The notes under the pieces are model-generated. The model was not told the origin of the DNA. It searched no databases and worked only from the letters and a program-made list of their open reading frames with translations. From assembly GCA_025361565.1 (NCBI GenBank), contig JANYKN010000175.1:1-64000 (forward strand): a stretch of DNA of 64,000 nt. The letters are read 5' to 3'. The DNA comes from Bacteroidota bacterium. Its GTDB lineage: Bacteria; Bacteroidota; Bacteroidia; Bacteroidales; NBLH01. Positions 7,590 to 23,150 of this stretch are shown here, one piece after another. The position numbers were made by a program, and so were the translations under genes. How positions within the stretch are numbered: position 1 is the first letter of the stretch; the number at the start of each line of letters is the position of its first letter.

Positions 7590-9119
7590 TTATTTTAATA
7601 GTTGTATGACTTCAGTTGGAAGCGAACTTTCAGTAAAGCCAAGATTCGGAAGTATGTCACTTTTTATTTGTTCGGATGAAAGACCACTTTCCTTTAATTC
7701 CATAATACAAAGCATGAAGTCCTTTAAGGATAATCCATCCTTCTCTTCAATACCAACAAAAGTTTTCTCCTCATGCGTTTGCCTTATATGATTGATTCTT
7801 GTGTTAATCATCCGAATGATTAAATTCAGTTTTGTCAGCTGTTCTTTTTTCAATCCATCCTTCAGTGTTCTGAGCAATGGGAAATTATTATTTAGTTCAA
7901 GCAGTGTTCCTTTGTTGGAAGCCTTTCTTTCAAAAAGCTGCAAATTATCTTCACTTCGGTTGTTTGAAAACTTGCGAATGCCTTTATTGAAGTACTCTCT
8001 CTCAGCTTCAATTTTCAATTCTTCAATGTACTTCTCAAACGCTGTGGTTAAATCGTGTGGGATTACAACCTGAGATTTTGCAACATTTAAGTGCAATAAA
8101 TGATCAACGCTGTTACCTACTTCCACACGAAGTCTGGCTAATTGCAGTCTTGGTGCTTTCTTGATTAAACCGTTCCAACCACCAAAGTGAATAAGCCTGT
8201 CTGCTCTATAAATGTAAATCCCTTCCATGTCCATCAAACTTCTGTTCTTTGTTGTCCAGATAGAAATTCCACTTAGGCTCTCATCAATACTTCTGGATGG
8301 CAAAACGAATCCTTCTATTTTAATCGTGTCAGTGCTGAAATTTTTTTGTTTGTATTCAATTGGTCGAAAGTCATTAACGGAAGGAAAAGGATTAAAAGGG
8401 GTAATACGATTATTGTTGATTCTAATGTTTAATGGATTGACCTTTCGTTCCATAAACCGATGAAACACCAGCGACAGGTAATCTGAGGTTACTTCACTTA
8501 TTTGTTTCTTTAATGCGTTTTGTCTGTTTGCTTCTTCCAGATAATTCTCAAACTTGTAAAGCCCTTTCCAAACAATGATTGTATTGGCTTCAAAATTTTC
8601 AAACCGGTTTATGTGTCCTTCGCTTAATGAACGATATTGTATAATTAGTTTTTGAATTTCTTCTTCTGTTTTAATCAGCAATCGCCATTTACCAACCTGC
8701 TTTAAATAATTAACATCCCATGTCCTGCCGAAATATTTTTTTGTTCCCTTCTTCCTTGACAAAACAGTAAAGCACCTTGTCTGAGAAAATGATGCTGTTT
8801 TCATTCCTAATCCAAATCTTCCCAAGTCAAGCGTATGCCTTGTATCTTCAGGTGATTTACTTGGAAACTGCATACTTGTTTTAAGAAATTCTTCACTCAT
8901 ACCGTCACCATTGTCAGCAATAAATAAAGTGAATGGTTCCTCATCCATTTTAATCAGCACTTCCAATTTATCTGCATTTGCTGAAACAGAATTATCCATC
9001 AGGTCGGCTAAAGATGATTCTAAACTGTATCCTTGCTCTGCAATAGACTTAATCAAATATTCAGGATTTGGATCTGCTACCTCTGAAAGTATATTAATGT
9101 TTTCACTCATTAACTTCAA
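7590..9119 (-). CDS. GHKL (HSP90/MORC/MutL-like) ATPase
   Basis: A 509-aa protein whose N-terminal 110 residues carry all Bergerat-fold motifs: an N-box around LMDNS with Asn43, the DNGDGM box at 69-74, and the glycine-rich lid GRFGLGMK at 100-107. The rest has the S5-fold-like middle region expected of MORC/MutL relatives. Such ATPases dimerise on ATP binding and clamp DNA; prokaryotic MORC-like versions occur in predicted restriction systems. An alternative start at Met4 (9110) is possible. It sits between the methyltransferase (70-bp gap) and the Z1 ATPase, supporting a shared ATP-driven effector complex. Confidence 0.88.
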   Translation of the reverse strand: MKLMSENINILSEVADPNPEYLIKSIAEQGYSLESSLADLMDNSVSANADKLEVLIKMDEEPFTLFIADNGDGMSEEFLKTSMQFPSKSPEDTRHTLDLGRFGLGMKTASFSQTRCFTVLSRKKGTKKYFGRTWDVNYLKQVGKWRLLIKTEEEIQKLIIQYRSLSEGHINRFENFEANTIIVWKGLYKFENYLEEANRQNALKKQISEVTSDYLSLVFHRFMERKVNPLNIRINNNRITPFNPFPSVNDFRPIEYKQKNFSTDTIKIEGFVLPSRSIDESLSGISIWTTKNRSLMDMEGIYIYRADRLIHFGGWNGLIKKAPRLQLARLRVEVGNSVDHLLHLNVAKSQVVIPHDLTTAFEKYIEELKIEAEREYFNKGIRKFSNNRSEDNLQLFERKASNKGTLLELNNNFPLLRTLKDGLKKEQLTKLNLIIRMINTRINHIRQTHEEKTFVGIEEKDGLSLKDFMLCIMELKESGLSSEQIKSDILPNLGFTESSLPTEVIQLLK

Positions 9120-9188
9120 TTATTATTTTGGTATGCAGTTACTTCAAATCCTGATAGTAAACTAGAAACCTTAAACATAAGATTGCTA

Positions 9189-10418
9189 TTATAATCCATT
9201 AATAAGGTTTGTAATTGCTTTTGCTAAAGAAGCAGCCATAAGTGGCGGAACTGCATTTCCAATTTGTTTGAAAGCAGCCGTTCTTCCACCTTCAAAAAAA
9301 TAATCATCTGGAAACGACTGAATTCTTGCAGCTTCTCTAACAGAAATAGAACGTACCTGGTTTAAATCCGGATAAATATAATAATGACCATCTTTTGAGA
9401 TATGGGCAACCATAGTATGAGAACATCCTTCATGATCAACAACTTTATACCTGTCAAGAAAAGAGGTTATATTTTTATGTTTCTGTAGTCGAGGATGTAA
9501 ATCTGAATATTTTAAGCGGGTACGATCATTAAGCCAATTTTCTATTGCTTGCGAATAAATTTCAAGATCAATGCTATTATGCGGTCTACTGATGTGCTGT
9601 GTTGTAAAATCTATTCCATTGCGAATTTCGAATCTTTTAAGGTAATTAGTAATTGGTGCTTCATACTTTGTAATATGTATCTCTTCCCCAGGCTTTAATT
9701 TTGGTAAATCTGAAAGAATTTCCTTTTTAAGTTTCCAATTATTCTCTTGCTTTTCAATCCTTGAGAAATCAAATTTTATATTACCCCTAGTGCCTATTAT
9801 AATTACCCTTCTTCTGTTTTGCAATACTCCGTAATCCGAAGCAAGGAGTTTATCATATGAGACATTATATCCAAAACTTTTAAAAAGTTCAAGCATTTCA
9901 TGTAAATATTTGCTGTTGCCAGCTGTGAGTAATCCAAGAACATTTTCAAAAACAAAGACTTTTGGATTATATTTTTTTAGAAATTTAGCATAATATTTGA
10001 AAAGATAGTTCCGTGCATCTCCTTCCATTCTGTTTGGATCCCTGCTTCTTCCTACCAATGAGTATGCCTGACAAGGAGGTCCACCGACGATTAAATCAAC
10101 AACTTCAGATTTAATTAACCCATTAATTTTCTTAAAAATATTTGGCAATGACTTTTCTGAGATTTCATCTGTTATAACCGATTCCAAAATTTCATAAGGA
10201 ACTTGATTCCAAAATTCTTCACGGGTAATTTCCTTTTTTAAATATCCCAGATATAAATCCTTTTTATTTACTGAATTAAGATAATGATAGGCCATTCTGG
10301 TTTTTAGTGTATCAGTTGCATCTTTGTTCATTTCAACATGGGCAACTGATTTAAACCCTGCACGTATAAATCCTTCAGACAAACCACCAGCACCAGAAAA
10401 TAAATCTATAAAATTCAT
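9189..10418 (-). CDS. DNA cytosine C5-methyltransferase
   Basis: A 409-aa Dcm/HhaI-type enzyme. Visible motifs: motif I LFSGAGG at residues 6-12, catalytic GGPPCQ with Cys116, motif VI ENV at 158-160, motif VIII QNRRR at 200-204, and motif X GNAVPP near the C-terminus. It transfers a methyl group from S-adenosylmethionine to cytosine C5 and would mark self DNA. Its start overlaps the Vsr stop by 4 bases (ATGA), a strong sign of coupled translation. The pairing with Vsr is typical, because 5-methylcytosine deaminates to T. The recognition sequence cannot be predicted here. Confidence 0.95.
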   Translation of the reverse strand: MNFIDLFSGAGGLSEGFIRAGFKSVAHVEMNKDATDTLKTRMAYHYLNSVNKKDLYLGYLKKEITREEFWNQVPYEILESVITDEISEKSLPNIFKKINGLIKSEVVDLIVGGPPCQAYSLVGRSRDPNRMEGDARNYLFKYYAKFLKKYNPKVFVFENVLGLLTAGNSKYLHEMLELFKSFGYNVSYDKLLASDYGVLQNRRRVIIIGTRGNIKFDFSRIEKQENNWKLKKEILSDLPKLKPGEEIHITKYEAPITNYLKRFEIRNGIDFTTQHISRPHNSIDLEIYSQAIENWLNDRTRLKYSDLHPRLQKHKNITSFLDRYKVVDHEGCSHTMVAHISKDGHYYIYPDLNQVRSISVREAARIQSFPDDYFFEGGRTAAFKQIGNAVPPLMAASLAKAITNLINGL

Positions 10419-10840
10419 TCGATATTATTTTTCTTCAAAAATACAATAATCTCATTAAAAAGCTGGTATTTTTTTTCTGAGTTTAACTGACATTCCCAGA
10501 TAACAAAAATCTTCCAATCCAATTCTTTTAAAGCATCTATTTTTATGCAATCTCTCTTTTTTGTTTGATTAATTTTACTCAACCACCATTCAGTTTTTGT
10601 CTTTGGAACTACAAAGTATTTGCAATTCTCGTGTCCATGCCAAAAACAACCATTAACAAAAATAACTGTTTTATATTTGGGTAAAACTATATCTGGTTTT
10701 CCTGGTAATTTTGTATCATGAAGCTTGTATCGAAATCCATTGGCAAAAAGAAACTTACGAACAAGCATTTCGGGTTTTGTATTTTTACCCTTGATGCGGC
10801 TCATATTGTAACTTCTGGTTTTTCTGTCATGAACATCCAT
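10415..10840 (-). CDS. Very short patch repair endonuclease (Vsr)
   Basis: A 141-aa protein matching the Vsr family over its full length. It opens with the typical RSYNMSRIKGKNT segment and has LPGKPD with catalytic Asp50, then VNGCFWHGH with Cys65, His68 and His70, and Cys73, the Zn-site and catalytic region. Vsr nicks 5' of T in T:G mismatches that arise by deamination of 5-methylcytosine, limiting the mutational cost of the adjacent methyltransferase. The gene overlaps the methyltransferase start by 4 bases. Confidence 0.94.
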   Translation of the reverse strand: MDVHDRKTRSYNMSRIKGKNTKPEMLVRKFLFANGFRYKLHDTKLPGKPDIVLPKYKTVIFVNGCFWHGHENCKYFVVPKTKTEWWLSKINQTKKRDCIKIDALKELDWKIFVIWECQLNSEKKYQLFNEIIVFLKKNNIE

Positions 10841-10865
10841 TAATCAGAAACAACTATTTTAAAGT

Positions 10866-11135
10866 TTATAGGATAGTATTATTTTTATCAGGCAATATTT
10901 TATCTTTTAGCTCGAAATCAAAATCTAAAAACCAGGAGAATCTAGATAAGTAATCAATGCTAAAACTGAATTTTCCATTTTCAATTTTTGAAATCGTAGA
11001 GCGGTTTACATTCATTTTTTCGGCTAAATCATCCTGGCTGTAACCTCTTTTTTCCCGAATTTGTCTTAAGGCATTACCAATTTTTAAACGGTAATCTCTA
11101 ATGAACTTGTCTTTTTTTGTACTTTCGTGATCCAT
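10866..11135 (-). CDS. XRE-family HTH transcriptional regulator
   Basis: An 89-aa protein with a helix-turn-helix of the Cro/C1 type: residues about 14-60 contain IREKRGYSQDDLAEKMNVN and STISKIENG. It resembles controller (C) proteins that time expression of restriction genes after entry into a new cell. It lies 25 bp upstream of vsr and 16 bp after the unknown leader gene. The palindrome at 11603-11623, just upstream of the operon promoter, is a candidate operator; this is an inference from position. Confidence 0.85.
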   Translation of the reverse strand: MDHESTKKDKFIRDYRLKIGNALRQIREKRGYSQDDLAEKMNVNRSTISKIENGKFSFSIDYLSRFSWFLDFDFELKDKILPDKNNTIL

Positions 11136-11151
11136 TTGTTTTGGTCAACTA

Positions 11152-11550
11152 TTAATTTACAATTAGCGCACCAGAATGTTCTGTACCTTGCTCATCAATA
11201 ATAGTAAGCCAGAGGTTAGTTACTATACCATTTGCAACTATTGTAAGGTCAAGCTTAACAGATTGTTCATTTATTTTAATAATTCTTCCATGTACTTGTG
11301 AATCATCCGGTTTGTTAATAGTAACACTGTGCCCAATTAAATCTTGTGTATTCACATCAACCACATCTAAATCATCTAAATGAACAGTGTTTATTGATGG
11401 GAAACTCAATCCTGTATTTAGAGCTTTTATATGAGCTCTTGGTCTGTCAACATCTTCAATGACTTCAAACACTAAATAAAGTTGTTCAGGATTTTCACCT
11501 TCCAAAGGTGTGTGGAATTTGGCAATTTGCCCTTTTTTAGTTGGGTTCAT
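11152..11550 (-). CDS. Hypothetical protein, first gene of the defence operon
   Basis: A 132-aa acidic, beta-rich protein of no family I recognise. It has no signal peptide or membrane segment. The first half contains an IVF-like strand pattern and the second half (IKINEQSVKLDLTIVANGI) looks like a small beta barrel or sandwich. It is the first gene after the operon promoter (-7 box at 11595-11602) and is followed 16 bp later by the XRE regulator. It could be a small accessory or regulatory protein of the restriction system, or an independent gene sharing the promoter. Confidence 0.6.
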   Translation of the reverse strand: MNPTKKGQIAKFHTPLEGENPEQLYLVFEVIEDVDRPRAHIKALNTGLSFPSINTVHLDDLDVVDVNTQDLIGHSVTINKPDDSQVHGRIIKINEQSVKLDLTIVANGIVTNLWLTIIDEQGTEHSGALIVN

Positions 11551-11594
11551 AATTTTTATGCAGTTTGTATCGCGTTGCCCCCGCTTTTAGTTCT

Positions 11595-11623
11595 CAAATA
11601 TAACTAATATTTAGCTAATTAGT
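11595..11623 (-). promoter_or_regulatory. Promoter and candidate operator of the defence operon
   Basis: On the minus strand, TATATTTG (11595-11602) fits the Bacteroidota -7 box TAnnTTTG, about 45 bp before the first ATG at 11550. Immediately upstream is an ACTAAT/ATTAGT inverted repeat (11603-11608 with 11618-11623) around a TTAGCTAA core, well placed to be bound by the XRE regulator. Confidence 0.5.
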
Positions 11624-12093
11624 GCAATATATTGAACATTTATTTTGAGGTAATTTGACCTTAAATTGGATGTTTTCCAAACAATCTTTTCAATCATGAT
11701 TTACAGGAAAAGACTCCGAAGGGCGGAGACAATTTCTGAATTATTTTGCAAATCAAGCTTTTTCAAATTTTCAGGTTGATAAACATGATAAATTTTCAAT
11801 GATTTGTTTGTTGAATTCTTTTCCAATGCAAAACAATATTGTTAAAAAATATACCTAAATTAAAATAAATCATGGTTAATTAGGAATTTGCAATCGTAGC
11901 AGCTCATGTTCATTATTAATTCTAGTTCATTGACAATGAACATATAAAATAATTGAACAAAGATGAAAATGAATATTTATTTTGAAATATATATAATAGC
12001 ATAATCAGATCATGTATTATATTTTGGTAAACATAAAATTCAGGAATAATTTTACTAATTTCGTCTATCTTAAAAACACTAAAAAATATTGAT
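11624..12093. other. AT-rich intergenic region with small inverted repeats
   Basis: No gene seen. A short GC hairpin (CTCCG/CGGAG, 11714-11728) and an ATGTTCATT/AATGAACAT repeat (11906-11914 with 11935-11943) are visible. The half-site GTTCATT also occurs at 11925-11931, so two overlapping pairings are possible; this may be an operator for the downstream YegP-like gene. Confidence 0.4.
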
Positions 12094-12426
12094 ATGGGAC
12101 ATCCTAGATTTGAAGTTAAGACTGGAAAAGATGGTCAATTTTATTTTAACCTAACTGCTAAAAACGGACAAGTTATTTTATCAAGTGAAGGCTATAAGAG
12201 CAAAGATGGTTGTGAGAATGGAATTGAATCGGTAAAAAAGAACTCACAAATTGATGACCACTTTGAAAGAAAAGAAGCTAAAGATGGACAGCATTATTTT
12301 GTTCTGAAAGCTGGTAATAGCCAGGTTATTGGTAAAAGTGAAATGTATAAGGCTAAGGCTGGTATGGAGAATGGGATTAGTTCTGTGAAAGAAAATGCTC
12401 CTGGAGCACAAATTGAATTTGTATAA
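12094..12426 (+). CDS. YegP family (DUF1508) protein
   Basis: A 110-aa protein made of two tandem DUF1508 units (about residues 4-50 and 54-101). Each has the F-E-x-K-x-x-x-D-G-Q-x-Y-F start, a G-N/N-G-Q-V-I strand and an E-x-Y-K-x-K-x-G-x-x-N-G-I-x-S-V end. YegP proteins are small, beta-rich and of poorly known function, sometimes linked to stress. It is a single gene with its own terminator-like hairpin just downstream. Confidence 0.9.
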   Translation: MGHPRFEVKTGKDGQFYFNLTAKNGQVILSSEGYKSKDGCENGIESVKKNSQIDDHFERKEAKDGQHYFVLKAGNSQVIGKSEMYKAKAGMENGISSVKENAPGAQIEFV

Positions 12427-12468
12427 TTTTTGTATCTTTGGTTTGTAATAAACCATTAGTAAAGATTG

Positions 12469-12499
12469 AGGCTGTTCTGTTAGTAGGGCAGCCTTTTTT
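12469..12499 (+). terminator. Terminator after the YegP-like gene
   Basis: AGGCTG (12469-12474) pairs with CAGCCT (12489-12494) and is followed directly by a T run. It lies 43 bp after the stop codon of the DUF1508 gene. Confidence 0.7.
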
Positions 12500-12511
12500 A
12501 CATTAGGATAC

Positions 12512-12621
12512 CTCTAAAAACTCCTATTTCTGCGTTACGCTCAATTTTAAAAATCCTCATTTACAATAAGTAAACTCCGGTTTTTAAAATTGAGCAAGCC
12601 TTGAACTCGGAGTTTTTAGAG
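12512..12621. repeat. 110-bp imperfect palindrome (MITE/REP-like)
   Basis: The ends CTCTAAAAACTCC (12512-12524) and GGAGTTTTTAGAG (12609-12621) are perfectly complementary over 13 bp. Further in, GCTCAATTTTAAAAA pairs with TTTTTAAAATTGAGC. The element is non-coding and looks like a dispersed palindromic unit; no second copy occurs in this window. Confidence 0.75.
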
Positions 12622-12668
12622 ATGCCCATTATTGTTTGCAGTTTATTATTCCGGGCTTACAGATCCGA

Positions 12669-13694
12669 TTAATCATTCCAATGAATATTATTAATTCTAT
12701 TTTGCAAGATTTTAAGTTTTTCGATTAATTGGGTAAAAGGAAGGCTTTCTCCGTAGATCATGTTTTCCTGCATTTGTTTGTAATCGGCTTCCCATTGTGG
12801 TAGTAATTCAACAGGAGGTATGAATTTAATGTATTCCGGATTATGTTTGGCATAATCAACATCAGCTAATTTTACAAAAATACTCCGGTGCTTCACAATA
12901 GTATTATATAACTCTTTATTTTGTAGAGCTTTGTTTGCGAATTCGGTTTGGCTAAGTTTTTCAATATCGTAAAGGTGTCTGCTAAGACGTTCTACCCGTT
13001 TCTTTTCATCAATCCGCTGAAATTCCTCGTGTAATAAAAATATTTTCTCCAAAAAAGTTCGTTCGGGATTTACTACCGGCACAATAATAGGCTTATCGGT
13101 AAAAGACCGATCAGTGAAATTTTCAGCTACAAAAGTGGCAAAAGTTCTTTGGGTATTGGGTTCTCTCAACGAGCGACTGCCAACTTCAACCAAAAGGCCA
13201 GGCTTAAGATAAGTGTCTGATTCGGTAAGCTTTGGATAGTATATTTCAACAATCAAGGGGTCCTGGTCGTGGTTGATTACATCGAGAGGCTTAACAATTA
13301 CTTTATGAAAACCTATTTCATTAAATTTGATTTGCAGCTCAGGAGCAAACTGATTGACAATAAAATCATAAGACAATCTTCTTAGTTTATTGACCGCCTT
13401 TTTATTAGGTTCTTCTTCTGTGAAACCCAAATATTCTTTATCCAAAGCCAAATCAATATCTTCAGAAAAGCGTTCTATCAAATTCCAGGCTTTGCTTAAT
13501 GATGTACCTCCTTTAAAAATGAGTGCAGGAGCACATTCCATTGTAAAAATAAGGGAAAGAGTATGCACTACCCACCAATCTTTTTCAATAGCTACAGCCG
13601 GTAATCCAACATTTCTGCTTGTTTCGGTAAAAATGTTCCGTTTGGTATTATCGGGCAATTGCATCCAATCTTTCAGATGTGTTAAATCATTCAT
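12669..13694 (-). CDS. AbiEii/AbiGii-type nucleotidyltransferase toxin
   Basis: A 341-aa nucleotidyltransferase-fold protein. The active-site signature is GGTS at residues 62-65 followed by RFSEDIDL at 75-82, with Asp79 and Asp81 as metal-binding acids. In AbiE systems the toxin transfers nucleotides to RNA substrates and arrests growth during phage infection. The gene overlaps the upstream antitoxin-like gene by 8 bp, the normal AbiEi-AbiEii arrangement. Family assignment is firm; the precise substrate of this member is unknown. Confidence 0.9.
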   Translation of the reverse strand: MNDLTHLKDWMQLPDNTKRNIFTETSRNVGLPAVAIEKDWWVVHTLSLIFTMECAPALIFKGGTSLSKAWNLIERFSEDIDLALDKEYLGFTEEEPNKKAVNKLRRLSYDFIVNQFAPELQIKFNEIGFHKVIVKPLDVINHDQDPLIVEIYYPKLTESDTYLKPGLLVEVGSRSLREPNTQRTFATFVAENFTDRSFTDKPIIVPVVNPERTFLEKIFLLHEEFQRIDEKKRVERLSRHLYDIEKLSQTEFANKALQNKELYNTIVKHRSIFVKLADVDYAKHNPEYIKFIPPVELLPQWEADYKQMQENMIYGESLPFTQLIEKLKILQNRINNIHWND

Positions 13695-14301
13695 TTATAA
13701 TCTCTTGTTTAGGTGAGCGTAATATTTTTCTAATCCATTCAGGCGCTAATTTTATATCATGCTGCAAATGGTAAGGTTTTTCATTTTTCAACAACTCCCT
13801 TATTTTTTTAATTTCTTCATCGCTTGCCATGTCTTTGCCTATTGTGCGTAAAGCTTGTATGGCAAGTTTACTGATGTCGCCAATGGCAGATACATTTTTG
13901 GCACTTGCCCTTTTAAAAGTAATAGTTTGCTTGCCTACTTTAATTTTGCGTGCCGTAGCATCTGTGTAATACACCACGTTCATAGGCACCTGAGTAGTTA
14001 GCCCAATCTTATACATAGCGTAGCTTCCCGTGGGGACAATACGTGCTTTGTCTCGTTTGGCTATGGCTTCGGCAATTTCTTCAATACCAGGTAATACAAT
14101 ACCTAAAATTTTATCTTCAGCTGGTCGCACATACATACCTGTTGCCATACGATGCAGTTCACCAGATTTTACTAATCTTTCCAATGCTTTTGCAATAGCC
14201 TTGGCATTTCCTAAAGTAGTAAAACTGTCCACAAAAAATAGCGAACCCCTCTTGGCTTTTTTTATTTTTTCAAGTATTTGTATTTCAAAGCTATCAATCA
14301 T
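13687..14301 (-). CDS. DUF6088 / AbiEi-like antitoxin
   Basis: A 204-aa protein with an N-terminal winged-helix region (KAKRGSLFFVDSF through LERLVKSGELHRMATGMYVRP), followed by a region with GSYAMYKIGLTTQ. It resembles DUF6088 proteins, partners of AbiEii-type toxins that act as DNA-binding antitoxins. The start is placed at 14301 rather than the longer 14334 because the latter would lie inside the operator palindrome 14317-14347. It most likely represses its own promoter and neutralises the downstream toxin. Confidence 0.85.
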   Translation of the reverse strand: MIDSFEIQILEKIKKAKRGSLFFVDSFTTLGNAKAIAKALERLVKSGELHRMATGMYVRPAEDKILGIVLPGIEEIAEAIAKRDKARIVPTGSYAMYKIGLTTQVPMNVVYYTDATARKIKVGKQTITFKRASAKNVSAIGDISKLAIQALRTIGKDMASDEEIKKIRELLKNEKPYHLQHDIKLAPEWIRKILRSPKQEIINE

Positions 14302-14316
14302 TATTATAACTATATC

Positions 14317-14347
14317 TTGTCGCAAATTTAGCAAATATTTGCGACAA
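14317..14347 (-). promoter_or_regulatory. Operator palindrome of the AbiE-like operon
   Basis: TTGTCGCAAAT (14317-14327) and ATTTGCGACAA (14337-14347) form a perfect 11-bp inverted repeat with a 9-bp spacer, ending 16 bp upstream of the antitoxin ATG. This is the expected place for autoregulatory binding by the AbiEi-like protein. Confidence 0.65.
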
Positions 14348-14802: not shown

Positions 14803-15303
14803 CTATTTTAAAGATGAAATCTGAGAATGAATATATCCCAGGGTATTTTTATCTACTTTTTCACCGATAACACTTGAAATTTCGGGTATTGAAAAACCAT
14901 TTGAATAAAGCTGTTTTACATAATTGTGCCTGAAAAGGTGTGTGGAAATTCGTTTGGTGTTGATATACAATTTATTAAACTGGTTGTTGTATAAAAGCAT
15001 TTTTTCGGTATAGTAGGAATATGATCTGATTAATGAAGGTAAGGTACCTGAAGCATGATGAGCAATAAATATAGGATTAAAATCGGAAATTGAGATAATA
15101 CGGGGGTTTGAGAACTTTTGAGTTTCAACCAATACAGAATCAATATCGATTATTGAAATTCTCGAATACTCCAATAATTCATTTATGCGAAGGCCAGTCC
15201 TGTAGAGGGAATCAAAGATTATATAGGAATATACATCGTAGAGCTTCGAATGAGCAACAATTGACCTGCAGCAATTTTCTATCTGGGTGTTTGTTAGTAC
15301 CAT
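14803..15303 (-). CDS. Minimal tyrosine recombinase (integrase catalytic domain)
   Basis: A 166-aa protein consisting almost only of a tyrosine-recombinase catalytic domain. Arg39 lies in TGLRINELL (box I), His122-Leu-Phe-Arg125-His126 is box II, and Tyr157 in GYIHS is the nucleophile. The usual second His/Trp (GH in box II) reads GE here (Glu148), so activity may be altered. The N-terminal core-binding domain of full integrases is missing. Start chosen at 15303; a longer frame to 15348 runs through a tandem octamer repeat. It is downstream of three DUF6266-like genes. It could be a site-specific recombinase of this cassette or a relic. Confidence 0.8.
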   Translation of the reverse strand: MVLTNTQIENCCRSIVAHSKLYDVYSYIIFDSLYRTGLRINELLEYSRISIIDIDSVLVETQKFSNPRIISISDFNPIFIAHHASGTLPSLIRSYSYYTEKMLLYNNQFNKLYINTKRISTHLFRHNYVKQLYSNGFSIPEISSVIGEKVDKNTLGYIHSQISSLK

Positions 15304-15316
15304 GGTCTTAATTATT

Positions 15317-15364
15317 GAATGTGTGAATGAGTGAATGTGAGAATGCAAGAATTTATGAATGATT
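15317..15364. repeat. Six tandem GAATGNNN octamers
   Basis: Six consecutive 8-bp units beginning GAAT (15317, 15325, 15333, 15341, 15349, 15357) lie directly upstream of the recombinase start and just past the stop of the preceding gene. An 8-bp unit shifts reading frame when copy number changes. Confidence 0.7.
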
Positions 15365-16525: not shown

Positions 16526-17179
16526 TTACTGGACACTACCAGCCAGGTCGGAACCAGCCAAAAAACTACCAGTTCTTTTAGAACCTGAAGCTTTTTTTCC
16601 ATCAGCTCTTTTCACATAACAATAGGTCTGCAAAGTTTTACCAACCATAGAAGCTGGCAAATTAAGCAAAGCCGAACCACTTGCCCTGGTGTAATCACCA
16701 TTTGAAACCAAAACTGTTTTTGTTACTGGCTCGATAACAACTAAAACAACCTGGTCGGTGGCCAATTTTGAACTCCCGTCGCTGTCATTCGCCCAGGCAA
16801 ACTCAGCCTCATCATCGTTCACTGTTGCTTTAGCTGTGAAATCAGGATTTGTTATCGAACCCTTGCTGATGTTGAGCGCATTCCAGTTTACTCCCTGGTC
16901 CGAAATACCATTGTTTACATTGTCGGACATAAACACATTGTATTCGGAATGTTTTGCAGGCCTCTCTGGGAATGCCCCAAATATTGCAGCAGCCAGGGCT
17001 TTGTACCAAACAAGCGTTTCTTTAAACGCAGTTCGTTGTGCTTGCTGAGCTTCAGAGTTTGCATCTGAATAGCCAGAAGGCATAGATTTAACGACATTTT
17101 GTCCACCGTTGACACAACCAACAACGGCTCCTACTTTACCTTTTACGGGACCTAAGATCCCCCCTGATAATTTTCCCAT
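16526..17179 (-). CDS. DUF6266 family protein
   Basis: A 217-aa protein with the characteristic N-terminus MGKLSGGILGPVKGKVGAVVG followed by NVVKSMPSG, which I recognise as DUF6266, a Bacteroidota family of unknown function. Residues about 40-80 are helical; residues 100-210 look like one beta domain ending in YCYVKRADGKKASGSKR. The start is set at 17179; the 38 extra codons upstream encode a low-complexity stretch and lack a good ribosome-binding site. No membrane segment or export signal is seen. The abundance of such genes beside mobile elements hints at a phage- or element-related structural role, but this is only an inference. Confidence 0.8.
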   Translation of the reverse strand: MGKLSGGILGPVKGKVGAVVGCVNGGQNVVKSMPSGYSDANSEAQQAQRTAFKETLVWYKALAAAIFGAFPERPAKHSEYNVFMSDNVNNGISDQGVNWNALNISKGSITNPDFTAKATVNDDEAEFAWANDSDGSSKLATDQVVLVVIEPVTKTVLVSNGDYTRASGSALLNLPASMVGKTLQTYCYVKRADGKKASGSKRTGSFLAGSDLAGSVQ

Positions 17180-17361: not shown

Positions 17362-17634
17362 TTACTTCCTGAGATTCTTCTCTAGTACTGCTTTAAATTG
17401 AGTTAACACATCGGTGATTTTTTCCTGAGATTCAAACATGCGCTCAATCATTTGATTTTTGAATTCGTGAAAATCAGCCTGCAGGGTTGAAAGTTCTTTT
17501 CTTAATTCAATTCTTTCGTTTGAATGTTGCCTGAAGGAATTTAAAGAATAGAAAAAAAGTACAGCCAGGACAAGTGATAATCCTCCAGCATTTGTTATTA
17601 ATTTAAAGATTTCTGTTTCCATTACAATTGTCAT
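17362..17634 (-). CDS. Small membrane protein, BhlA/UviB holin-like
   Basis: A 90-aa protein with one N-terminal transmembrane segment (about residues 16-31, GGLSLVLAVLFFYSL) and a charged coiled-coil tail with heptad spacing. The METEIFKL start followed by a hydrophobic stretch is reminiscent of small BhlA/UviB-type holin-like proteins. The likely start is Met5 (17622). It is transcribed toward the DUF6266 genes and sits downstream of two TGTCA-TATGACA palindromes. A holin role would support a phage-like cassette; the resemblance is weak, so a generic membrane coiled-coil protein is equally possible. Confidence 0.55.
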   Translation of the reverse strand: MTIVMETEIFKLITNAGGLSLVLAVLFFYSLNSFRQHSNERIELRKELSTLQADFHEFKNQMIERMFESQEKITDVLTQFKAVLEKNLRK

Positions 17635-17847: not shown

Positions 17848-18279
17848 TTATACTTTTTTATTGAAATATTGGTAAACATAAGCTCTTTTTAAATCCTGGA
17901 TAAGTTTTAGATTTTCTTTGAGTTGTTTTTCTTTGGATTCGATAAAGTTTAATTGTTTAACTATTTCGGAAAACGCCAAAGAGTTTCCATTTACTATTTC
18001 GATTTTTTCTGTAATGAGCTGTTTGTAAATGCCGATGCGGATAAACGGAATGACTGAGCCCATTAAATATGGATGAAATGCTTTGGTACGCCAAAGAGCA
18101 AAGGTTATCCAATAAAGTACTTCTTTGAATTCTTCGGATTCGGTTTGAATGATGAAACTGTTTGGACAAATAACCTGCAAAGGTTTACCAGAGTTAAGGC
18201 CTTTGTTTAAAACAAAGAAATGAGGTCTGTTGCTTTCAAGTTTTACTGTTGATGATTTTACGTTAAAAGTTGTTTTCAT
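17848..18279 (-). CDS. Hypothetical 143-aa protein (possibly DUF6943)
   Basis: A 143-aa protein without signal or membrane segment. The N-terminal half is beta-rich (MKTTFNVKSSTVKLE, PHFFVLNKGLNSGKP), the middle has aromatic helices (EEFKEVLYWITFALWRT), and the end is a coiled coil (IESKEKQLKENLKLIQDLKRAY). It resembles small proteins of the DUF6943 type seen in Bacteroidota accessory regions, but I am not certain of the family. It is upstream of the holin-like and DUF6266 genes on the same strand, separated by a terminator, so probably expressed separately. Confidence 0.55.
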   Translation of the reverse strand: MKTTFNVKSSTVKLESNRPHFFVLNKGLNSGKPLQVICPNSFIIQTESEEFKEVLYWITFALWRTKAFHPYLMGSVIPFIRIGIYKQLITEKIEIVNGNSLAFSEIVKQLNFIESKEKQLKENLKLIQDLKRAYVYQYFNKKV

Positions 18280-18648: not shown

Positions 18649-21375
18649 ATGATCTATAATGAATTTATAAAGTCGTATTTAGATTGTCCATATAAATTGT
18701 ATTTGAAACATCAATCTATAGTTGGGCACAGTAATATTTATTTGGAATACTATGCACGTTTAGCAATTAGCATTAAAGCTGATGTTATAAATAGAAAATA
18801 TCGGAATTTAAAAAATGTTTCAGAAAATACTGATATTGATTATGATACAATAATAAATAATGATTACATAATAAATGGATACATAAAACAAACTGATTAT
18901 GAATTGCAGTTTGACATTGTTGAAATTCAGCGAAACATTGATGGGAAAAACATTGTTATCCCTATATTCATTTCTGAAAAAGAATTTATTTCGAGAAATC
19001 AAAAGCTCTTTATAGCTATTATAACAATGAAGGCGGAGGAGTTACTTAATAATAGCATAACTATAGGAAAAATCATTAATGGATATCAGCATAAACATTC
19101 TAAGATTATCCTAAATAATTATAAAAAGGAGGCATTTGCTGCATGGAAAAACATTCAGCAAATTGTTGCTAATAATCTTATCCCCGAATTTAGAAGAAAT
19201 AAACATTGCCAAATTTGCGAATATGATGTGATTTGTAAAAATCATGCTATTGAGACTGACGATCTGAGCCTCTTAAGTGGAATGAGCCCAAAAGAAATTA
19301 AAAAATGGAAGAATAAGGGAATTTCTTCAATAAACCAGCTTGCATTTAATTTTAAACCAAGAAGAAAAAGAAAACAAAATATTAATTATCATCAAAAAAA
19401 TATTGTTGAGCTTAAAGCATTGGCTATTAGGGAAGATAAAATATATGTCTATGAAACTCCGGATAACATTCAGAAAACAAGTGTAGAAATATTTTGGGAT
19501 ATAGAAGGTATTCCGGAAATCAAATCTTATTACTTAATTGGAATATTGGTTGTTAAGAATAATGAAACAAAGAAGTATCAATTTTGGGCAGAAAACAAAG
19601 AAAAAGAAATTGAGATATTTTATGAGTTTCTTGAAATTGTGGAATCTTATCATGATTATCAGTTATTTCATTATGGTACATATGAAGTTCAATATTTGAA
19701 ATATATGAAACAAAAAGTTGAGAAATTAGAACATAAAATCTTGATAGATGAATTAATTGAACATAGCGTTAATGTATTGACATATTTTAATTACAACATC
19801 TACTTACCTATATACAGCAATGGTTTAAAGGAAGTTGGACAATACATCGGTTTGAAATGGTCAGATAAAGAAGTAAGCGGGATCAATAGTATTGTTCTTA
19901 GAAAAGAATGGGAAACTACTGGAAATCTGATTTTAAAAGATAGGTTGATGCAATACAATTACGAAGATTGCTTTAACCTTCAAGGAGCAAAACAATTCCT
20001 AACCAGAATTATCGAAAATAAAACTAAAAATCTGGAATTTCCATTTAAAATTGAGTATGAAAAAGCACATGAGCAGAATACAACCTTTGCAATATTAAAT
20101 AAGGTTTTTGCGGATCCAAATATTGAATCAATTAACAATTGCTCATATTTTGACTATCAAATAGACAGAGTGCATATCAGGGAAAATACAAGAAGAAAAA
20201 AGGCTAAACTATCAACAAAAAAGTTTAATGGTTCAACGAATCAAAAAATAAATATTGAGGCTAATAAATGTAATTTCTGCTATAGAAAGACAATTGGAAG
20301 AATCAGTAATGTAAAAACAAAAAAGGTTTTAGATATTAAATTTTTTAAAGCAGGAGTCAAAAAATGGATAACGAAATACATATCTTATGAATATTATTGC
20401 TCAAATTGTTCAAATTCATTCATACCAAGAAAATTTAGCAGTATTAGAGAACATTATGGGCATAGCCTTAAATGTTATGTAATTTATCAAAATTTTGTAA
20501 ATCTATTGAGTTTTGAGAAAATTGTTAAAAACATTGCCGAGCTCTTTCAATTATATTTAGAGAAAGCTACTGCACATAATTTTAAAGAGTATTTTAGAAG
20601 CTATTATGAAGAAACACAAAAGAATTTATTGAAGAAAATCATAAATAGTTCTGTTATCTATGTTGATGAAACTCCTTTCAAATTGTTGAGCGGTGAAGTA
20701 TATGCCTGGATATTTACAAATGGCCAAGAAGTAGTTTCGATTTTTAAACCCACAAGAAAGGGAGATTTCTTGAAGGAATTGTTAAAAGATTTTAAAGGCG
20801 TTTTAGTTTCCGACTTCTTTTCAGCTTATAGTTCATTGGAATGTAGGCAACAAAAATGTTTAATTCATTTAATGAGAGATTTCAACGATGATTTATTAAA
20901 GAATCCTTATGATTCTGAATTAAAGCAAATTACTCAAAGATTCACAATGCTTTTAAAAGCAATTGTAAAAACAATTGATAAAAAAGGATTTGATAAAAGT
21001 TATCTTATTAAATTCAAAGCTGAAGTTAATCAATTCTTTGATTTTGTTGAAAATACAACTTTTCATTCGGAAGCAGCTATAAAATACAAGGAAAGATTAA
21101 TGAAGAATAGTGATAAATTATTTACATTCATTGAATTTGATGATGTGTCATGGAATAATACATTTGCTGAACATGCAATCAAATTGATGGCAGTTCATCG
21201 AAATAAAAACATTAAATTCTTTAAAGAAACCAGGATGGAAGATTATTTGTTGATTATGAGTTTATATCAAACTTCGGTATACAAAAGTTTCGATTTCCTC
21301 AGATTCTTATTATCAAAAGAAACAGATGTTGATAACTATTGTGAAAAGGAAAAAGGTACAATTATTACAACATAG
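18649..21375 (+). CDS. TM0106 (RecB/Cas4-like)-IS66 transposase fusion
   Basis: A 908-aa two-part protein. Residues 1-200 resemble a Cas4/RecB-like module: Cys13 plus Cys187, Cys190 and Cys196 match the four cysteines that hold a 4Fe-4S cluster, but I do not see a clear D...(E/Q)-x-K nuclease triad. A helix-hairpin-helix-like segment (about 206-235) and an RNase H-like exonuclease part follow (WDIEG with Asp284 and Glu286; HYGTYE at 341-346; YNYEDC with Asp440), the TM0106 layout. Residues 541-587 hold two CxxC pairs (zinc ribbon). The C-terminal part is an IS66 DDE transposase: Asp673 (YVDETPF), Asp722 (SDFFSAY), Glu841 (FAEHAIK). No TnpA or TnpB partner is present and no terminal inverted repeats were found. 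Confidence 0.85.
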   Translation: MIYNEFIKSYLDCPYKLYLKHQSIVGHSNIYLEYYARLAISIKADVINRKYRNLKNVSENTDIDYDTIINNDYIINGYIKQTDYELQFDIVEIQRNIDGKNIVIPIFISEKEFISRNQKLFIAIITMKAEELLNNSITIGKIINGYQHKHSKIILNNYKKEAFAAWKNIQQIVANNLIPEFRRNKHCQICEYDVICKNHAIETDDLSLLSGMSPKEIKKWKNKGISSINQLAFNFKPRRKRKQNINYHQKNIVELKALAIREDKIYVYETPDNIQKTSVEIFWDIEGIPEIKSYYLIGILVVKNNETKKYQFWAENKEKEIEIFYEFLEIVESYHDYQLFHYGTYEVQYLKYMKQKVEKLEHKILIDELIEHSVNVLTYFNYNIYLPIYSNGLKEVGQYIGLKWSDKEVSGINSIVLRKEWETTGNLILKDRLMQYNYEDCFNLQGAKQFLTRIIENKTKNLEFPFKIEYEKAHEQNTTFAILNKVFADPNIESINNCSYFDYQIDRVHIRENTRRKKAKLSTKKFNGSTNQKINIEANKCNFCYRKTIGRISNVKTKKVLDIKFFKAGVKKWITKYISYEYYCSNCSNSFIPRKFSSIREHYGHSLKCYVIYQNFVNLLSFEKIVKNIAELFQLYLEKATAHNFKEYFRSYYEETQKNLLKKIINSSVIYVDETPFKLLSGEVYAWIFTNGQEVVSIFKPTRKGDFLKELLKDFKGVLVSDFFSAYSSLECRQQKCLIHLMRDFNDDLLKNPYDSELKQITQRFTMLLKAIVKTIDKKGFDKSYLIKFKAEVNQFFDFVENTTFHSEAAIKYKERLMKNSDKLFTFIEFDDVSWNNTFAEHAIKLMAVHRNKNIKFFKETRMEDYLLIMSLYQTSVYKSFDFLRFLLSKETDVDNYCEKEKGTIITT

Positions 21376-21419: not shown

Positions 21420-22260
21420 GAACGAGCTCGACAGTTTAAAAATCAAAAGGAGCTGTCGACGAGAGCGGGACCGCTGCGGGTTGAGGGCTAGCCTGCCAGG
21501 AGAAAAGCATGAGGTACGAATGCGCCTGGCAGTGCTGGGGCTTGGGTTTTGGCTGGTTTGGCATTTCGACTGGTTTCGACTACGCTCAACCACCACTGCT
21601 CAATGACCAACCAGCCGAAACCTTAGCCTCTGGAGGCTTTTTAGACGGTTATTTTATCCATTGAAATAGTTCAAAAAGGTCAAAATAACCGGCTGAAAAA
21701 CGCCTAGCCCGATGCGCAGGGCCCGCTACAAAACAAAGTGCTGCGGTTGGGCTAATGCTGAAAGCCTGAGTGAAATGGAAGTAGAGAGGAATGAAGAAAT
21801 GCAATGAAATGGAATGGATGATTGACGAACGTATGGAATTGAATGAAGGCTTTTTGCATTGAGACCAGGAGTAGCAGCACATGAGGGGAGTGCCGGGAAT
21901 TGCAATAAAAGATGCCAGGCTGGTAGTAAAACGGACACACGAAGTGCAGCTGTACTTATTTTATACCCAAAAAGGCAATTATAAAATCATAAAATGGGTA
22001 TAGCTGGCCTGGCGGCTTTTTTGCTGACCAAATGACCCGAATACCTTATAAACCCAAGTTGGTTGGTTTTGCAACGGTTTCAAGATGGATCACTGATTTA
22101 GGAAAAGGGAGCTGAAAGAAAGAAAGTGCTGTCAAGTTTGGCAAAACCAACCAAGGAGTGCGTGCTAAATGGTCGGAAAATAACAAAATGAAGTTGGGGC
22201 GGGTAAAGTAGTTCTGAGAAAACAAAAAAGCAGGCTATGGAAGCCCGCCGGAAAATGAAC
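21420..22260. ncRNA. Candidate large structured non-coding RNA (stem-rich region)
   Basis: No gene. Higher G+C than its flanks (by eye mid-40s percent). Complementary pairs in order: 21427-21434/21453-21463; 21493-21500/21525-21532 (8 bp perfect, with an inner GCAT/ATGC); 21539-21565/21602-21628 (24 of 27 paired); 21625-21629/21634-21638 (competes with the previous); 21635-21655/21682-21704; 21705-21710/21749-21754 with inner 21715-21719/21741-21745; 21754-21767/21847-21860; 21914-21924/22003-22013; 21962-21969/21995-22002; 22059-22072/22141-22154 (14 bp perfect); 22198-22204/22243-22249. A T run at 22017-22022 after one stem could end a plus-strand transcript. RNA, DNA-level repeat cluster and element remnant all remain possible. 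Confidence 0.35.
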
Positions 22261-22715
22261 TACGACTGCGCAAAGCCTTGCATAACCTGAAAAAGAGCAA
22301 AGAAACATGATAATAAGTACGATAACGAGTAAAATCATAACAAAGACGATTGTCAGTAGCTAATTTTAAAACCTTGAAATAAAGAGTTGAATTTTCCATG
22401 ACTTAAAGATTTAAATTAAACAATTAAAAACAATTAATATGCTTTAAATCAGGTGTTAGAGAGCAATAAGTGCAAAAGGAAACGGAATAAATGTCAGAAA
22501 AAAATGAAGATTGAATAACGTTTGTGGATTATTGAATTGTTGAATTTATGGGTAGCTGCGAACGTTTATGCCGTAGTCTTTTGCCTCGTTTGCGAACGTG
22601 CCTAACTTTGCTTTTTAATTGGTTTTATCCTTCCATCTATATCAGTAATTTTGTAAACCTGCTTATAATAGATGAGATTTTAGCTACCGGATTCTTAATT
22701 TGTTCCATAAGGCTT

Positions 22716-22766
22716 ATCAAAATTATCCTAGAAAAGTAGGAACGGATTTTCCAGGATAATTTTGAT
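22716..22766. repeat. Hairpin with 20-nt arms
   Basis: The arms 22716-22735 and 22747-22766 are complementary except for one mismatch, with an 11-nt loop. The outer 14 bp (ATCAAAATTATCCT with its complement) are perfect. There is no T run on the plus strand, so it is not a typical terminator. Confidence 0.7.
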
Positions 22767-23150
22767 GTGCCGGTATTCATACCAAAGTTAATTCTTAATA
22801 TACTGCAGTAAGGCTTTTTTCCTGACGACGAGAAAAATGAGTTTTGCGATAGCAAAGCGTTTTTTGAGAAGGAGGGGAATGGGCCTGGTGGATATGAAAG
22901 ATAAACTGATATTAAGGCCAAAATTTATAATATGATACCAAAAAATCCTAATTGAAATTTCTATTCTTAAACTATTTGAAAAAAGAAATCAATTCACTAA
23001 ATTTGCTCTGAATTTATTAGTAAATTGCAATCATTATCGATAAGATTATGTTTCACATGTGCTTCACATGAGGCTGAAAAATAAATTTGTAAGTTTCTAT
23101 TCTTCAATAAAATATAGGGAAATGTCACTTGGTACAGGTGGCACCACAAA

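Follow-up and report, generated by a model that had tools for sequence, protein, structure and literature searches.

A probable, apparently undescribed family of large structured non-coding RNAs in mobile elements of Bacteroidota

GOLLD, a structured RNA of more than 800 nt found in phages and prophages and often located beside tRNA genes, is conserved in its 3′ region and less so in its 5′ region, and its function is unknown (PMC12286853). ROOL is likewise large and ornate, is encoded by phages and prophages, and has neither a known partner protein nor a known function; in Ligilactobacillus it equals 16S rRNA in abundance, yet is dispensable (PMC12286853). In Vibrio, the phage ICP1 encodes a non-coding RNA of about 800 nt beside its lysis cluster and the satellite PLE produces a transcript between inverted repeats, both of them abundant (PMC7567579). 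Earlier screens for candidate structured RNAs have included Bacteroidetes (PMC8040213, PMC2864571). Here we analyse a 64,000-nucleotide stretch of a Bacteroidota genome (hereafter the window) and report that its positions 21422–22154 are probably one member of a widespread family of large, structured non-coding RNAs that belong to mobile elements of this phylum and have apparently not been described before. The family is nearly certain as a structure and likely as a transcript.

A sequence-only reading had singled out 21420–22260 as a gene-free region rich in G+C and unusually dense in stems, and these properties hold. The region contains no convincing open reading frame (ORF), and its G+C content is 46.3%, compared with 32.4% for the whole window and 27% immediately upstream. 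The 841 nt fold at −281.5 kcal/mol versus −236.7 ± 7.0 for shuffled sequences (z −6.4, matched by none of 20 shuffles), and the 5′ part (21422–21746, 325 nt) reaches a z of −7.5, matched by none of 100. A candidate ORF containing IPYKPKLVDW, present in some RNA copies, was discarded because the window copy and locus L033 carry a single-base, frame-shifting difference. The proposed extent had to be trimmed: the copies share a start at ACGAG (21422), and the conserved part stops near 22154. This leaves a copy of about 730 nt on the + strand, defined by homologous copies in its own genome and in a congener, by fold z-scores and by covariation.

From 5′ to 3′, the RNA comprises a hairpin, a closed 5′ domain of three hairpins, a purine-rich middle, a 3′ module and a terminal 14-bp stem, all placed on the + strand. 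The stem of the first hairpin (21428–21459; 21428–21437 with 21450–21459) is rewritten yet still paired in other copies. The 5′ domain (21464–21734) is closed by a G+C-rich basal stem, GCGGGACCGC...GGGCCCGC, and RNAalifold predicts for it 86 consensus pairs from five copies, 15 of which are changed on both sides. Its variable long hairpin (21539–21628) bears a REP-like TTCGACTACGCTCA insertion in the loop; the 27-nt arms proposed for it (21539–21565 with 21602–21628) do form 22 Watson–Crick and 2 G–U pairs, and they diverge strongly among copies while complementarity is kept in each. The third hairpin (21638–21699) had been drawn slightly out of register, since the suggested arms 21635–21655 and 21682–21704 pair at only 11 of 21 positions without gaps, but the hairpin itself is genuine at a small offset: an inverted-repeat search gives 21638–21662 with 21675–21699 at 20/25, and RNAalifold recovers it in five copies. 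The middle module M2 (21738–21880), with a GTGCTGC...GCAGCAC closing helix and a purine-rich interior, is conserved across the class. The 3′ module M3 (21892–22073), made up of helices S0, S1, H1 and S2 and an ACC...AAA loop, is the most conserved part; in the window it is a full-length match to both covariance models described below (R1, 21911–22054, 135.6 bits; R2, 120.2 bits, E 3e-29). The terminal stem (22059–22154) pairs 22059–22072 with 22141–22154 at 14 of 14 positions, as had been claimed, and elsewhere reads CTGG..CTGGCC/GGCCAG..CCAG.

Two kinds of loop sequence recur. REP-like TTCGACTCCGCTCA(G) palindromes, which occur across the order, sit in apical loops of RNA hairpins in the window (21571–21594) and at L034, L036, L042, L043, L049 and L054. 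Hairpin loops also often start with ACC and then turn A-rich (UACCUUUAAAAAU), several of them within one RNA (L121, L122, L124–L127, the window hairpin 21638–21699 and the M3 loop), making them a possible candidate site for protein or loop–loop contacts.

Non-coding copies were found on three further contigs of the same genome (C185, C77 and C134), together with truncated pieces on C35, C110 and C132. One congener, the metagenome-assembled genome (MAG) ‘Bacteroidales bacterium C14-25’, carries copies as well, and it was the sole genome found by a genome-wide DNA pattern. Elsewhere the RNA continues directly into hairpins that in the window sit displaced at 22711–22890 (22711–22771 and 22806–22890, + strand), and the stretch 22155–22705 contains an unrelated dispersed repeat (22392–22628, + strand) that lies outside the RNA, and downstream of the element in other copies. 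The window copy is therefore rearranged beyond the 14-bp stem. Having lost the replication genes and the setting usual at its 3′ end, it may be a remnant. The repeat itself, of about 236 bp, terminates in a canonical Bacteroidetes promoter, TTTG-N19-TAACTTTG, and recurs at L034, L039–L042 and L044, the last with two copies.

Outside the genus, blastn across the order returned REP-like or chance pieces only, so a covariance model was needed. Within the order, model R1 detected the module in 16 of 393 genomes, and it also reached one further family of the class; model R2 detected it in 19 of 227 genomes of the class, spanning 16 genera with E-values down to 1e-34. A further match (E 2.5e-14) comes from Marivirga sp. 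BKB1-2, whose circular 25.3-kb plasmid p1 has the 3′ module at NZ_CP129969.1:16752–16925 (minus strand), within 2.4 kb that are free of annotated genes; the plasmid also carries HTH, Rep-like and DUF6266-like fragments, DUF5675 and a small membrane protein. DNA patterns of the RNA searched in IMG/VR gave no matches or chance matches. One single-contig genome (G218) holds eight RNA copies between 101 and 301 kb (L159–L164, contig C1, ~96–309 kb), each flanked by an operon for a primase or recombinase and, opposite it, by variable genes with protein products that start MEEGE or MEEAE; its array contains a CHC2 primase, an XRE regulator and often two tyrosine recombinases.

The structure is supported by covariation in alignments seeded from loci picked via DUF6943, a recurrent neighbour discussed below, or via the covariance model. 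Ten loci, four of them from outside the genus with a recognisable 3′ module, share helices S1, H1 and S2, of 5, 3 and 18 bp, in which 92.6% of cells are paired; both sides change in 21 of 26 pairs, and covariation is 0.669, versus 0.210 ± 0.029 when shuffled and at most 0.179 when slid. With 24 loci, both sides change in 24 of 30 pairs (covariation 0.481 versus 0.181 ± 0.013 shuffled). For 34 loci (435 columns), RNAalifold was supplied with no structure and predicted one freely, from which the outer helix, M2 and M3 emerged with 62 consensus pairs. Canonical pairs amount to 89.1%, versus 71.4 ± 0.6 shuffled and 34–49% in slid controls; compensatory cells number 358 versus 103 ± 9 shuffled, and the consensus energy is −89.6 versus 0 to −5 after columns are shuffled. 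Compensatory changes above shuffled controls in 10, 24 and 34 diverged loci are what the sequence-only reading had proposed to look for, and compensatory covariation in diverged loci that also exceeds slid controls marks out a new family. For the 5′ domain, the support from covariation is confined to the genus. Of short-window z-scores in the foreign gene-free stretches, 27% fall below −3 versus 9% in the control, a mild excess only.

As to the strand, the 34-locus consensus is better on the + strand (−89.6) than on the reverse complement (−80.4), and G–U outnumbers A–C by 102 to 52 in the 34 loci and by 13 to 2 in arms compared at fixed register, which together point to an RNA read from the + strand, although this bias may be partly built in because RNAalifold favours G–U. 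A Bacteroidetes-type promoter, TTGTCAGCTTTG...CCTGTAACTTTG, is common to six related elements, where it precedes M3 by 544–592 nt on the strand of the RNA; its enrichment across all loci is weak (13 of 45 versus 7.8 ± 3.1 shuffled). Strand bias and promoter, as read from sequence, favour a transcript, short of proof.

Two types of element repeatedly carry the RNA. In the window, the element has on its − strand a DUF6943 gene (17848–18279), which is a recurrent neighbour of the RNA in related elements, a small gene with a weak holin-like match (BhlA, 17362–17634, E 0.0043, below the Pfam cut-off) and a DUF6266 gene (16526–17179), with a short tyrosine recombinase of 181 aa (14803–15348) on the far side of the element that is 33% identical to a homologue beside DUF6266 at L116. 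Of 393 genomes of the order, 16 contain DUF6943; within the window's own genome, every match to DUF6943 or DUF6266 that passes the Pfam cut-off adjoins an RNA copy. The recurrent DUF6943 element (type I) combines an excisionase-like HTH protein, DUF6266 or a DUF6266-like protein and small membrane proteins with lysis genes, namely a holin and an endolysin (GH108, phrog_315, phrog_3000), and with replication genes for an initiator-like protein and a DnaC-like helicase loader. We call it satellite-like, a label taken solely from its gene content. The other type (type II) is characterised by a tyrosine-recombinase pair and a CHC2 primase; RHS-like fragments are present at type II loci other than those of G218. 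Among 54 RNA loci, 26 have a DUF6943 or DUF6266-like gene no more than 7 kb away, 9 lie beside the recombinase pair and primase, 3 beside primase and XRE only and 1 beside Rep and DnaC only, while 15 have no hallmark gene within 7 kb, several of these on contigs shorter than 10 kb. Loci detected by the RNA model alone (L135, L136, L215, L219, L229 and L232) also carry the gene set, and thereby provide an independent test of the association between RNA and element. One of them, L219 (G823:C1:44000–62000), has two type I elements, inverted head-to-head, with one RNA each. The DUF6943 loci L117–L120, L122, L123, L125 and L128 have no significant model match, and most of them keep a gene-free stretch there. 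Database searches with the neighbours gave little: a related-locus search seeded with DUF6943 and a tblastn of DUF6943 against phages and plasmids found nothing, and profiles of DUF6943, DUF6266 and the DUF6266-like family had no credible relative in the PDB; the AlphaFold model of DUF6943 alone reached a pLDDT of 46 and was set aside.

The interval between DUF6943 and the RNA is occupied by variable cargo: a fusion gene in the window, two small ORFs at L033/L034 and nothing convincing at L035. L042 has an AbiE-like pair upstream. Downstream of the RNA, 33 loci have an ORF of 180 aa or more no further than 400 nt away, and at 30 of them this variable cargo gene is convergent with the RNA, the two 3′ ends facing each other. 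A tRNA adjoins the element at L033, L034, L118 and L126, and not at most others. The window also holds a defence-like island at 7590–14334, with an ATPase, a cytosine methyltransferase, a Vsr-like endonuclease and a nucleotidyltransferase/DUF6088 pair (AbiE-like).

A cmscan against all families of Rfam 15, at gathering thresholds and at E ≤ 1, returned only tRNAs and chance matches, and the RNA had no match to the Rfam covariance models of GOLLD, ROOL or group I and II introns. Set apart in this way from the Rfam models, the family is apparently new; a fragment of it may stand in the earlier screens (PMC8040213, PMC2864571). On the best reading it would be an analogue of GOLLD and ROOL, unrelated to them in sequence. 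It resembles GOLLD in size and in its conserved 3′ and variable 5′ parts, and may resemble it in context, having phage-type lysis and replication genes nearby; it differs in lacking a sequence or covariance match, in the host phylum of the loci seen here, in its link to DUF6943/DUF6266-like or recombinase–primase elements and in its adjacency to tRNAs at some loci only. Membership of GOLLD would further imply a multimeric RNA nanocage. With ROOL it would share being a large structured RNA of phage-like elements with no known partner protein; it differs in having no Rfam match and in being described so far from sequence. The ICP1 and PLE transcripts, one of them beside lysis genes, are likewise non-coding RNAs of a phage and its satellite, but they belong to a Vibrio system and are likened here by description. 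Integron attC sites, which an integron integrase recombines as a folded strand, offer another parallel in their place at the end of variable cargo genes, with tyrosine recombinases at type II loci; the new RNA is far larger, and a recombinase lies nearby at a minority of loci.

Covariation in all three alignments, the strand bias and the absence of an Rfam family strongly support the idea of a novel large structured non-coding RNA that had been raised for this region. Its own promoter would drive a discrete + strand transcript of about 0.7 kb; once folded, this RNA would probably act in trans, partnered by a protein or by itself, and contribute to a step in the life of the element, for example replication, packaging or lysis. 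More tentatively, and as something possible rather than expected, it could be a core trans-acting part of Bacteroidota phage-satellite-like elements, self-assembling or protein-bound, serving replication, packaging or takeover, exchanged between unrelated element types and forming a fixed border for swaps of defence or toxin cargo. The main rival, which we regard as unlikely, is that the fold acts in cis, in single-stranded DNA or nascent RNA, as a replication origin, packaging signal or recombination site, with cargo cassettes exchanged at its 3′ end. Such a role would suit loci that lie mostly in mobile elements, many of them near replication genes (Rep and DnaC, or CHC2 primase) and, in type II, tyrosine recombinases, and that lose homology abruptly at the 3′ end beside variable cargo. 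It fits less well with the excess of G–U, which suits RNA better, with the conserved promoter aimed into the region in six elements and with the lack of recombinase and replication genes at many loci; moreover, known attC sites and single-strand origins are far smaller than the 0.5–1.3 kb seen here.

The remaining explanations are much weaker. That the region is a mosaic of dispersed palindromes, REP-like or MITE copies with no joint function, is very improbable: TTCGACTCCGCTCAG-type repeats do occur in several loops, but the same helix order is maintained with compensatory changes across genera. Because this ordered architecture is kept, the array of palindromes that had been offered as an alternative is not supported for 21422–22154, and a mosaic describes only the sequence after 22154. 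Scarcely credible is a guide or partner RNA for the protein encoded directly upstream, a TM0106-type RecB/RNase H nuclease joined in one 908-aa ORF to an IS66 DDE transposase domain (18649–21375, + strand), a partnership suggested by adjacency in the window only. Among 99 genomes of the order, 9 have matches to the fusion, full-length in this genome only; in the other eight the IS66 part alone matches, at 21–36% identity. The fusion was not seen beside other RNA copies, and a related-locus search seeded with it found nothing. We therefore dismiss it as the partner of the RNA and, since variable cargo occupies the same interval in other copies, read it as cargo of the element.

Large structured RNAs of bacteria are few, and the phage-borne GOLLD and ROOL have no known function. 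The family described here, found in about 4–8% of the sampled genomes of the order and class, multi-copy in some and present on a small circular Marivirga plasmid, would add a further one, and with it a second, independent opportunity to test expression, partner proteins and dispensability. A fixed position beside variable defence and toxin cargo also makes it a marker for finding undescribed mobile elements of Bacteroidota.
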